A DNA stretch of 64,000 nucleotides, taken from NCBI GenBank assembly GCA_020846715.1, contig JADLDK010000030.1, positions 1-64,000 on the forward strand, written 5' to 3'. Positions 41,190 to 44,325 of the stretch are shown here, piece after piece. This stretch comes from Armatimonadota bacterium. Its GTDB lineage: Bacteria; Armatimonadota; UBA5829; DSUL01. Each line of letters begins with the position of its first letter. Position 1 is the stretch's first letter. A program made the translations under genes and the position numbers. The notes beneath the pieces are model-generated. The model worked only from the letters and a program-made list of their open reading frames with translations. It was not told the origin of the DNA and did not search any database.

Positions 41190-41270
41190 GGGGATGTGGT
41201 GGAACGGTAGACACGCTGTCTTGAGGGGGCAGTGAGGAAACTCGTGAGAGTTCAAATCTCTCCATCCCCA
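41190..41270 (+). tRNA. tRNA-Leu (anticodon GAG)
   Basis: A class II tRNA of 81 nt. The acceptor GGGGATG pairs with CATCCCC (41263-41269); the anticodon stem CTGTC/GGCAG holds the loop TTGAGGG with anticodon GAG, reading CUC/CUU. A long variable arm (TGAG-GAAA-CTCG) and T-arm GAGAG-TTCAAAT-CTCTC are present. The discriminator is A; CCA is not encoded. Confidence 0.95.
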
Positions 41271-41370
41271 TTTTACTGAACTCCAGAAAAACCTGAGTTC
41301 AGTCAGGGGCTTGCCGGACAGGGCGTTTTACCTGCCCGTCGGCCAGGTCAGGCCCTCATTGGCTGTCCGG
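41271..41370 (+). other. Spacer between tRNA-Leu and tRNA-Val with a hairpin
   Basis: Contains a 9-bp inverted repeat ACTGAACTC / GAGTTCAGT (41275-41283 with 41295-41303), with an A-rich loop and no following T-run. It may be a processing stem for the tRNA precursor rather than a terminator. Confidence 0.5.
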
Positions 41371-41442
41371 GGGCGATTGGCGCAGTGGGAGCGCGCCTCG
41401 TTCACACCGAGGAGGTCACTGGTTCAAATCCAGTATCGCCCA
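41371..41442 (+). tRNA. tRNA-Val (anticodon CAC)
   Basis: 72 nt. The acceptor GGGCGAT pairs with ATCGCCC (41435-41441); the anticodon stem CCTCG/CGAGG encloses TTCACAC, anticodon CAC (reads GUG). The T-arm is ACTGG-TTCAAAT-CCAGT. Discriminator A; CCA is not encoded. Confidence 0.95.
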
Positions 41443-41538
41443 TTTTTGTTTTCCGTGGAAGAGCTGAGAGGCGCTGGGCGCCCTTTTGCCGGCCGCGCAG
41501 GTGGCGGTCGAAGCGACGGTGTGAATCTCAGACAGGCT

Positions 41539-41613
41539 GCGGGCGTAGTTCAGTGGTAGAGCGTCTGCTTCCCAAGCAGGATGTCGCGAGTTCGAATCTC
41601 GTCGCCCGCTCCA
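41539..41613 (+). tRNA. tRNA-Gly (anticodon CCC)
   Basis: 75 nt including an encoded CCA (41611-41613). The acceptor GCGGGCG pairs with CGCCCGC; the anticodon loop TTCCCAA gives CCC (reads GGG), with a stem TCTGC/GCAGG that has one T-G pair. It is the only tRNA of the four with an encoded CCA. A hairpin GAGGAGCGC/GCGCTCCTC follows at 41633-41656. Confidence 0.95.
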
Positions 41614-41689
41614 GTTTGTAAGTTTGCTCTTTGAGGAGCGCCCCTGAGCGCTCCTCTGTCTTTGTAAAGAGCGCCTCGCGAAAGATCGA

Positions 41690-41760
41690 GGCGGCGTAGC
41701 CAAGTGGTAAGGCAGGGGACTGCAAATCCTTCATCAGCGGTTCGATTCCGCTCGCCGCCT
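41690..41760 (+). tRNA. tRNA-Cys (anticodon GCA)
   Basis: 71 nt. The acceptor GGCGGCG pairs with CGCCGCC (41753-41759); the anticodon loop CTGCAAA gives GCA; discriminator T60 (U), as required for cysteine identity. The T-arm is AGCGG-TTCGATT-CCGCT. CCA is not encoded; TTTT follows directly and may terminate the cluster. Confidence 0.95.
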
Positions 41761-41861
41761 TTTCTCCCTCAAAACCTCCTCACACCGCAGAGGAACCGGA
41801 AGTCTCTGACTCTAACTCTGCGTCAACGTTTTCGCGCGGGGTCTGCTGAGGAGAGTTGGAC

Positions 41862-43130
41862 ATGACACACGTTTTCAAAAGCGCTCTTTCGCTGGTTTTC
41901 ATCGCTGCGGCGGTTGCTGGCGCGCTCTTACCGGTGCGGGCGTGGGCTGCTCCGGATCCAAAGGCAGACGGCAGCGCGGACGCGTCTTCCGCCATTCAGG
42001 CGAAGCTTGACGCCCTTGCCGGAGACGGCGGAGTTTACAGTCTGCCTGCAGGGCGGTACCGGCTGGACCACGGCATCAGCGTTCCCACCGGAGTTACACT
42101 GGCGGGAACCTGGCAGGCGCCTCACCACGCGGAGGGCAGGAAAGGCACCATTCTGCTTGGCTACGCCGGAAAGGGCAGGGAGGCGGGAGCGCCACTCATC
42201 CACCTGTCGCCCAACAGCACGCTCAAAGGTGTCACCATTTTCTACCCCGAGCAAAAGCTGCCGGATCCGTTCCCTTACCCGTGGACCATTCAGGGCGAAG
42301 GCATGCACGGCAGCGTTATTGACGTGACGCTTGTGAACTGCTACAAAGGCATAGACTTTGGCGACAAGCCAAACGAACTGCACTACATCCGCAACGTTTT
42401 TGGCTGTCCACTGAAGGCCGGTATCCACATCGACCAATGCACAGACATCGGGCGCATTGAGAATGTCCACTTCAATCCGCACTACTGGCAACGCTCCGGC
42501 GAGCCGGGCATCCCCTCCTGGGAGAATCTGCTGAGCTATCTCTTCCACAACCTCATTGCGTTCAGCATCGCCCGTAGCGACTGGGAGTTCATGCAGAACA
42601 CCTTTTCTTTCGGGGCAAAAGTCGGCTACCGCTTCTACTCCAGCAAAGCGGGCGCGTGCAATGGCAACTTTTCAGGAATCGCGGCGGACTGGGCCGAGAC
42701 CGCAGTCCTTGTTGAGCAAACTCAGCCGCCCGGACTGCTCATTACCAACGGTGAGTTTGTCGGCGGGAAAGGCAGCAAAGCGGTCATCGACGTGCGCCCG
42801 TCGCACAGTGGCGTCGTGCAGCTTTCCAACTGCGCCTTCTGGGGTCCCGTGGAGACGAATGTGCGCGTGGATGGGCCGGGCTATGTCAGCCTCAGTCAGT
42901 GCAACTTCGTCAACTGGGACGCAAATAATACAGGCGCCGCGTGTGTTCAGGCTGTCGGCGGTGAGATCAACATCGCGAACTGCATGTTCCGCGAAGACAA
43001 AAGCCAGATTGAGCTTCAGTCCGGTGTCCTCACCGCCACAGTGCTTGGAAACCGCTTCGCCGGCGCCCAGCGCATCCAGAATCAGAGCGCGGGAGATGTC
43101 CAGATCGCCAACAACGTGACGCGTAAATAA
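41862..43130 (+). CDS. Secreted right-handed beta-helix (pectate-lyase-like) protein
   Basis: A 422-residue exported protein. ATG 41862 follows GGAGAG and opens a signal peptide (FKSALSLVFIAAAVAGALLPVRAWA, cut near residue 30). ADGSADASSAIQAKLDALAGDGGVYSLPAGRYRL is the pectate-lyase-3/GH28-type N-terminal cap, and the remainder alternates short beta strands (GVTIFYPEQ, VIDVTLVNCYKGIDFG, GRIENVHFNPHYW, VQLSNCAFWGPVETNVRV, INIANCMFREDKSQIEL) typical of a parallel beta-helix. No pectate lyase Ca-site or GH28 Asp triad is evident, so it may be a carbohydrate-binding or structural member. It follows the tRNA cluster by about 100 nt. Confidence 0.75.
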   Translation: MTHVFKSALSLVFIAAAVAGALLPVRAWAAPDPKADGSADASSAIQAKLDALAGDGGVYSLPAGRYRLDHGISVPTGVTLAGTWQAPHHAEGRKGTILLGYAGKGREAGAPLIHLSPNSTLKGVTIFYPEQKLPDPFPYPWTIQGEGMHGSVIDVTLVNCYKGIDFGDKPNELHYIRNVFGCPLKAGIHIDQCTDIGRIENVHFNPHYWQRSGEPGIPSWENLLSYLFHNLIAFSIARSDWEFMQNTFSFGAKVGYRFYSSKAGACNGNFSGIAADWAETAVLVEQTQPPGLLITNGEFVGGKGSKAVIDVRPSHSGVVQLSNCAFWGPVETNVRVDGPGYVSLSQCNFVNWDANNTGAACVQAVGGEINIANCMFREDKSQIELQSGVLTATVLGNRFAGAQRIQNQSAGDVQIANNVTRK

Positions 43131-43175: not shown

Positions 43176-43970
43176 TCAGTCATACCCGTGCCCGTAGCCG
43201 TCTCTGCTGAACACACCATTTGGTGACACACGCTCGCTGTCGAAGCTGGTGGAGCTGGTCACAAACTGCGCGTGCCCATCAGCGAAAATCACGGTCGCGC
43301 CGCCGGGGTGCCACTGCCTGTACCAATCCGGGACATACCAGTAGCGCGTGCCTGTCGGGTCTTCCTTTGGCCCAGCCCAGGGCATCATCTCATCCCGCAT
43401 TATCCGCGTCTCAGAGGGAAACTCGAACTCGGCGTCCCTGATGATGTGGTGCGGTTTGTTCACCTGCGCGTCGTTCTGGGTGGAGTTGTCCGGGTTGCCT
43501 GGCTGATTCACGATGCTGAAGCAACCTTTAGTGAATCTGTAGCTGGACCCGAATTTTTTGGCGTAGCTTTCAATATTTTGGCCACCGTTGGGGCCGCCGG
43601 TATCGTCAGGACATTCGAAAATGCCCTGGCTTTTCGCATATGGCAGCACCTGCACTTCTACGCCTTTGTGAGGTGTCGTCGTGCAGTACATTTGAAAGAT
43701 AGGCCAGGAGCTGTTGTTGTCATCCACATACATGCGCACGGCAGTGCCCACTTGCCGCGCCTGCGTCAGGCATGTAGCTACCCTTGCCCGTTCTTTGGCG
43801 CTGGTGAATACAGGAAAGAGAATCGCCGCCAGAATAGCGATGATGGCGATGACAACCAGAAGCTCGATGAGCGTGAATCCGTGTTCGTGTTGTATCCCGA
43901 CGTGAGCTGAAGCGCGGCTGTGAGTCTGGTTGCGCGCGCCGCCTGCGTTGCGTCGTCTGAGTGCCCTCAT
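43176..43970 (-). CDS. Type II secretion-like pseudopilin with H-X9-DG C-terminus (DUF1559-like)
   Basis: A 264-residue prepilin-like protein. ATG 43970 has GGAGG 6 nt upstream. After a 30-residue leader the prepilin peptidase site is G-FTLIELLVVIAIIAILAAILF, with the conserved Glu5. The C-terminal part ends with HPGGATVIFADGHAQF, the H-X9-DG motif found in very large families of pseudopilins in Planctomycetes, Armatimonadetes and relatives. The leader is unusually long and charged (RRRNAGGARNQTHSRAS). Upstream on the same strand are an intrinsic terminator, a TPP riboswitch and a promoter, so expression may respond to thiamin status, which is unexpected for this family. Confidence 0.9.
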   Translation of the reverse strand: MRALRRRNAGGARNQTHSRASAHVGIQHEHGFTLIELLVVIAIIAILAAILFPVFTSAKERARVATCLTQARQVGTAVRMYVDDNNSSWPIFQMYCTTTPHKGVEVQVLPYAKSQGIFECPDDTGGPNGGQNIESYAKKFGSSYRFTKGCFSIVNQPGNPDNSTQNDAQVNKPHHIIRDAEFEFPSETRIMRDEMMPWAGPKEDPTGTRYWYVPDWYRQWHPGGATVIFADGHAQFVTSSTSFDSERVSPNGVFSRDGYGHGYD

Positions 43971-44002
43971 GGTGTACCTCCACCGGAGCGGCCACACAAA
44001 CG

Positions 44003-44038
44003 AAAACGCCGCCGACCGGAAACTCCCGGCCCGCGGCG
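44003..44038 (-). terminator. Intrinsic terminator after the TPP aptamer
   Basis: On the minus strand CGCCGC (44038-44033) pairs with GCGGCG (44012-44007), with an inner GGCCGG/CCGGTC stem and a 6-nt loop, followed by TTTTCGTTT. It lies about 73 nt after the aptamer and 33 nt before the pseudopilin ATG. It is well placed to be the expression platform of the riboswitch. Confidence 0.75.
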
Positions 44039-44110
44039 AAACAGACGATCCATTTAGAAGAAGGTCTCAATGAAGAGTGACGGAAGACGCTCCCGCAGCT
44101 CTTCGCTATT

Positions 44111-44203
44111 CCGCTTTCCTACGCCGGCATTATCCGGATCAGGTTCCTGGGGTCGCTCCGTTATTGCGGAGCCTCTCAGCCGGCGAACCGGCTCCCCCAG
44201 CGG
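44111..44203 (-). ncRNA. TPP (thiamin pyrophosphate) riboswitch aptamer
   Basis: Read on the minus strand. P1 is CCGCT (44203-44199) with AGCGG (44115-44111); P2 is CTGGGG (44200-44195) with CCCCAG (44152-44147). A hairpin GCCGG-TTCG-CCGGC leads into the invariant CTGAGA (44179-44174); P3a is GCTCCG-CAATAA-CGGAGC. The 3' half contains the second invariant block ACCTGATCCGGATAATGCCGGCGTAGG (44144-44118), including the CCGG-ATAATG-CCGG P5 stem. All THI-box elements are in order. The only gene downstream on this strand is the pseudopilin at 43176-43970; no thiamin gene is in the window. Confidence 0.93.
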
Positions 44204-44296
44204 TGACATCTCGCAGTCGGCATGCGGCGTGCGCCGCCCCGTTGCTGTTCAACGTACCTGCCGCGAGCCATTGGCTCGCTGGCAAGTCCCAACTTC

Positions 44297-44325
44297 ACTA
44301 TACCCATCCTGACCTCCATTCGCAA
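44297..44325 (-). promoter_or_regulatory. Promoter of the TPP riboswitch transcript
   Basis: On the minus strand TTGCGA (44325-44320), a 17-nt spacer and TATAGT (44302-44297). The predicted start near 44290 gives a leader of about 320 nt: a hairpin GCGAGCC-AAT-GGCTCGC, then the aptamer, then the terminator, then the pseudopilin. Confidence 0.6.

Follow-up and report, generated by a model that had tools for sequence, protein, structure and literature searches.

What is a TPP riboswitch doing in front of a pilin gene? Two decades of extensive mapping have linked TPP riboswitches to genes of thiamin synthesis or transport. H-X9-DG pilins occur in great numbers in some genomes and we know of no role assigned to them. 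In the stretch of Armatimonadota DNA analysed here (64,000 nucleotides, referred to as the window) the two follow one another on the minus strand (Table 1). The sequence-only reading of this locus offered two options, namely that thiamin status controls a secretion-type pilin, or that relocation or loss of its thiamin gene orphaned the leader and the pilin became inserted after it. Our analysis favours the former. At roughly two chances in three, we consider the pilin to be controlled by vitamin B1 through an OFF switch, to belong to the core of the thiamin-salvage regulon in Armatimonadota and to help auxotrophs to obtain thiamin. The regulatory link between the riboswitch and the pilin is well supported in itself.

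Table 1. Features of the riboswitch–pilin locus, in window coordinates
Feature	Position	Strand	Evidence
Sigma-70-like promoter TTGCGA-17-TATAGT	44297–44325	−	9/12 consensus matches; consensus match only
TPP riboswitch aptamer (THI element), complete	44099–44208	−	RF00059, 78.9 bits, model 1–105
Intrinsic terminator stem-loop CGCCGCGGGCCGGGAGTTTCCGGTCGGCGGCG, expression platform	44007–44038	−	G+C-rich hairpin and U-rich tail
U-rich terminator tail TTTTCGTTTG	43997–44006	−	Sequence
Shine-Dalgarno-like GGTGGAGG	43977–43984	−	Sequence; 6 nt before ATG
H-X9-DG pseudopilin, 264 aa, cleavage site HG/FTLIELLVV	43176–43970	−	PF07963, PF07596, TIGR02532, TIGR04294

The succession of promoter, aptamer, intrinsic terminator and pseudopilin gene given in that reading was confirmed. 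One promoter-like site was found, compared with 0.2 expected from shuffled sequences. The Rfam scan returned the aptamer with E=6.4e-14, well above the RF00059 gathering cut-off of 54.3 bits, and its alignment to the model contains few non-standard pairs. It is the single TPP aptamer in the whole genome to which the window belongs (G000; 3.2 Mb assembly, 94% complete). The pilin, starting with the ATG at 43970 (−), was rightly described as the only gene downstream: no gene follows on the same strand and the next one (41856–43130, encoding a beta-helix protein) is convergent, so that the pilin forms a transcription unit of its own. Between this beta-helix gene and a gene for an ABC-F type ATPase there are four consecutive tRNA genes (41190–41760, plus strand).

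A generic terminator scanner misses the terminator of the window owing to a mismatch in the stem, and the hairpin is revealed by RNA folding. Its 5′ arm, UUUCGCCGC, has an alternative partner in the 3′ strand of the aptamer helix P1 (antiterminator). In silico folding of the growing transcript predicted that the P1 3′ strand and the nucleotides after it pair with this arm while the polymerase is inside the terminator; when P1 was constrained to stay closed, the effect expected of TPP, the terminator was free to form. P1 plus terminator on the one hand and the antiterminator on the other were mutually exclusive in these co-transcriptional folds, and transcriptional OFF switches are usually built on such an alternation. 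According to this model, the window riboswitch is most likely a transcriptional OFF switch, with the pilin made only at low TPP. With enough TPP, the ligand would keep P1 closed, the terminator (44038–44007) would form and the pilin would not be transcribed; at low TPP, the P1 3′ strand would pair with the 5′ arm of the terminator and the polymerase would read into the pilin gene. A strict scan for ungapped terminators, which misses the window's own, found one before the pilin in 14 of 66 leaders (0.5 in shuffled sequences). As a clear ungapped terminator is seen in only these, the leaders of many relatives may act on translation instead.

The protein carries the prepilin N-terminal motif (37.1 bits with PF07963, 34 bits with TIGR02532) and the H-X9-DG C-terminal motif (TIGR04294, 22.9 bits; cut-off 19), and its sequence matches in the PDB are to pilin helices. 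The PF07596 family bears the name SBP_bac_10/DUF1559 and is annotated as being of unknown function. Identity with GspG, the T2SS major pseudopilin, was rejected, because the TIGR01710 score of 39.8 bits is far below the equivalog cut-off of 88.85 and reflects a match of the N-terminal helix only. Two AlphaFold runs yielded models of low confidence (pLDDT 58 and 61), for which Foldseek comparison with the PDB returned nothing with E<0.001 and no binding-protein fold; consequently, the fold provides no argument for ligand capture.

In the order to which the window belongs (four genomes searched, from three genera), five TPP aptamers were found and all five directly precede an orthologous pilin, 46–64% identical to that of the window. 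The pair of aptamer and pilin thus recurs in each related genome compared. In two of these genomes the next genes encode thiamin pyrophosphokinase (TPK; PF04263) and a sodium:solute symporter (SSS; PF00474), and at one locus two YkoE-like ECF components (PF09819) come next. None of the 34 TPP aptamers in other families of the class precedes a pilin; judging from their sequences, the ORFs behind them include thiE, thiC, thiG and thi4-like genes.

The phylum was searched with a profile built from the head domain of the pilin, the N-terminal helix that pilins share being left out, and the result on the pairing covers the Armatimonadota with 291 genomes. An orthologue was detected at E<=1e-25 in 136 of them, in exactly one copy in 130. 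All 136 contain a TPP aptamer, and in 135 it is located directly upstream of the pilin, as established from coordinates or direct scans. In the remaining genome (G046, locus L087) the aptamer heads two tandem pilin ORFs followed by TPK. Such tandem TPP-regulated pilins behind one aptamer were also observed at L121 (G035) and L129 (G204), in the latter with a YkoE-like gene between them. Named hosts of the orthologue include members of the Chthonomonadaceae, Armatimonadaceae and Fimbriimonadaceae.

Pilins are numerous in these organisms, with at least 40 pilins detected in G000 and at least 51 in G001. A scan of 20 paralogous pilins from these two genomes with all Rfam models found no riboswitch nearby, which rules out that pairing with a riboswitch is a general habit of pilins; among the pilins scanned, the orthologue group alone possesses one. 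Like other H-X9-DG/DUF1559 (SBP_bac_10) pseudopilins of Planctomycetes, Verrucomicrobia and Armatimonadota, its members have the prepilin motif, the H-X9-DG C-terminus and a CP motif in the head. They differ from these by a head signature of their own (IF-x-AYN, H-x-G-x-E, YGSSYRF, TRIMRDEM-x-PW). The head domain is strongly conserved within the group, its residues H101, G103, E105, Y136, S163, R192, M195 and W220 being near-invariant there and rare or absent in the paralogues. Pairwise dN/dS values of 0.04–0.08 between orthologues indicate strong purifying selection on the pilin.

Presence of the pilin was compared with that of ThiC, for which 117 of the 291 genomes were positive. Both were found in 6 genomes, the pilin only in 130, ThiC only in 111 and neither in 44 (Fisher 1e-35, a value that ignores phylogeny); both states occur within each of the families f6, f11, f12, f13 and f20. 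Each of the six genomes with pilin and ThiC has two TPP aptamers. In one of them, G072, pilin-TPK-SSS follows one aptamer and a thiE-thiS-thiG operon follows the other; ThiE is present in this genome. None of the eight ThiC-less pilin genomes tested has ThiE, and neither ThiC nor ThiE was found in the window genome at its 94% completeness. The avoidance of ThiC, together with the absence of ThiE in these eight, argues that the pilin belongs to the core of the regulon by which auxotrophs salvage thiamin.

A second pilin of the H-X9-DG type was met in the ThiC-less genomes that have a listed TPP aptamer and no match to the profile. It lies behind the aptamer in five of these eight (G242/L112, G257/L114, G243/L115, G249/L116 and G258/L118; families f35, f39 and f42), followed in G257 and G258 by TPK and SSS. 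This second pilin does not share the main group's head signature and forms a separate clade (support 100/96). In G175, a pilin behind the aptamer runs off the contig end, so that only G087, with a thiG-like gene, and G205, with a membrane protein, have no pilin in this position. The G205 aptamer (L113, positions 274–381) precedes a 227-aa membrane protein of the BPSS1780 family, neither a thiamin gene nor a pilin, which could possibly be an unrecognised thiamin transporter. In G021, which has neither ThiC nor the pilin, TPP switches (L022, L038, L039) stand before genes that from their sequences resemble CytX, ThiD and YkoF/ThiL, and these look like canonical precursor salvage.

That no thiamin gene is nearby, as the sequence-only reading had it, holds for the annotated part of the window but not for the relatives. 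Among the loci whose sequence extends far enough downstream, about half have TPK, usually with SSS, or a gene for a YkoE-like ECF component behind the pilin, and these loci place the pilin inside a thiamin-salvage regulon. At the remaining loci, that of the window among them, the genes after the pilin are unrelated or convergent. The window genome (94% complete) also contains no recognisable TPK or thiamin-type SSS elsewhere, so that the co-occurrence with salvage genes does not extend to it; its full salvage route is therefore unaccounted for, which counts against the preferred explanation. Its sole PF04263 match, in a 447-aa ORF between RecN-like and envelope-protein-like ORFs, was discarded as a TPK candidate since the ORF reads as SteA-like.

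The pilin is probably an undescribed part of how thiamin auxotrophs obtain vitamin B1, because a TPP switch stands directly before the same pilin almost only in species unable to make the vitamin. A role in acquisition is most likely in view of the tie to full auxotrophy, the operons shared with thiamin phosphorylation and transport, and the near-invariant residues H101, E105, R192 and W220, which are rare or absent in the paralogues. We propose that prepilin peptidase would process the pilin, which would then become part of a type IV pilus or type II secretion-like filament or be exposed on one. In the simplest form of the role, it would bind thiamin, or a ligand that carries thiamin, on the outside of the cell and so supply a transporter in the inner membrane. 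The published genome of Fimbriimonas ginsengisoli fits this view: the enzymes of thiamin biosynthesis are completely absent except for thiamin pyrophosphokinase, and there are 79 pseudopilin genes (PMC4072686).

Taken by itself, the window genome, with no thiamin gene after the pilin and no recognisable TPK or thiamin SSS, would be compatible with an orphaned leader, the thiamin gene having been lost and the pilin standing behind it by chance. We give this hardly any credence, given that aptamer and terminator are intact and that the same pair recurs in all related genomes of the order and, across the phylum, in 135 of the 136 genomes with the pilin. This phylum-wide conservation, under purifying selection, refutes the orphaned leader with an inserted pilin and strongly supports the other option of the sequence-only reading, control of the pilin by thiamin status. 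It also bears on the idea of a hitch-hiker, that is a mobile pseudopilin which landed between an old TPP leader and a thiamin operon and was kept by inertia. Pilins are abundant, in some loci the pilin does lie between the TPP switch and thiN-SSS, and the second, unrelated clade fills the same slot in f35, f39 and f42. Such an origin nevertheless seems very improbable, because TPP switch and pilin are kept together in the half or so of the loci in which thiN, SSS or YkoE is missing, dN/dS is low and the orthologue tracks the absence of ThiC. With the pilin as the constant part and enzymes and transporters as the variable one, the distribution argues against hitch-hiking.

A more serious alternative, albeit one that we consider unlikely, is that thiamin starvation induces a pilus serving behaviour, i.e. 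attachment, twitching or aggregation that takes the auxotroph to producers or to dead biomass, or else a piston that secretes enzymes freeing bound thiamin, with no role in uptake. Type IV pilins have roles in adhesion, motility and secretion, in many of the genomes the pilin is the only TPP-controlled gene, and pili under the control of a c-di-GMP riboswitch are already known. The non-motile cells of F. ginsengisoli have fimbriae, which were assigned by the authors to attachment (PMC4072686). What speaks against a purely behavioural pilus is that one specific pilin among at least 40–51 per genome is tied to TPP, that operons are shared with TPK and transporters and not with pilus machinery, and that the head domain is strongly conserved, unlike that of a generic major pilin.

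The sequence-only reading did not recognise the arrangement from described systems, and for a TPP riboswitch controlling a pilin no earlier description was found in the literature searched. Nothing relevant was retrieved on TPP riboswitches with a pilin or with Armatimonadetes, most subscription papers lying outside this search. In a survey of 564 TPP sites the targets were thiamin biosynthesis and the transport of thiamin and its precursors (PMC3766115). The Armatimonadota loci share with such salvage regulons the aptamer (RF00059), the partners thiN/TPK, SSS and YkoE-like in half of the loci, and the prominence in auxotrophs; they differ in that the constant target is a pseudopilin, and the survey's main text mentions neither a pilin nor Armatimonadota. 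The closest functional analogue of the proposed system is the Bacteroides OMthi, a TPP-linked TonB-dependent outer-membrane protein serving thiamin uptake with PnuT (PMC5613172). The likeness lies in a diderm whose surface protein is linked to a TPP riboswitch and would serve thiamin together with a transporter of the inner membrane and a pyrophosphorylase; OMthi, however, is a TonB-dependent transporter backed by genetic evidence, whereas here it is a pseudopilin known from sequence. In Clostridioides difficile, a c-di-GMP riboswitch controls type IV pili (PMC6200980, PMC6366702). There too a riboswitch precedes pilus genes, but its ligand is a signalling nucleotide and not a vitamin, and there is no nutrient-acquisition operon.

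That the constant target in half a phylum is a pseudopilin suggests either a new route of vitamin capture or a vitamin-controlled surface behaviour, and gives a first functional handle on H-X9-DG pilins. Since two hosts appear to be cultured, Fimbriimonas ginsengisoli and probably Chthonomonas calidirosea, the question is directly testable.

A bolder version, which we hold as tentative and on balance doubtful, sees in the pseudopilin a dedicated thiamin receptor, the head binding thiamin or a thiamin-bearing carrier and the extension and retraction of the filament delivering it across the envelope to the TPK/SSS/YkoE salvage machinery. If true, H-X9-DG pilins, whose paralogues number tens to hundreds in a genome, would be a general class of nutrient-specific surface receptors, and the present one the first with its substrate named by a riboswitch. 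Other pilins of G000 and G001 (L141, L149, L155, L146, L142 and L135) adjoin genes for glucoamylase-like, aldolase, MFS, GntR/LacI-type regulator and PepSY_TM proteins. Neighbours of this kind, as read from their sequences, would fit nutrient-linked roles for further pilins. Four short pilin-like ORFs lie in tandem at G000:C1:3979-5972, and probably represent the core pseudopilin cluster of a real T2SS/T4P machine.
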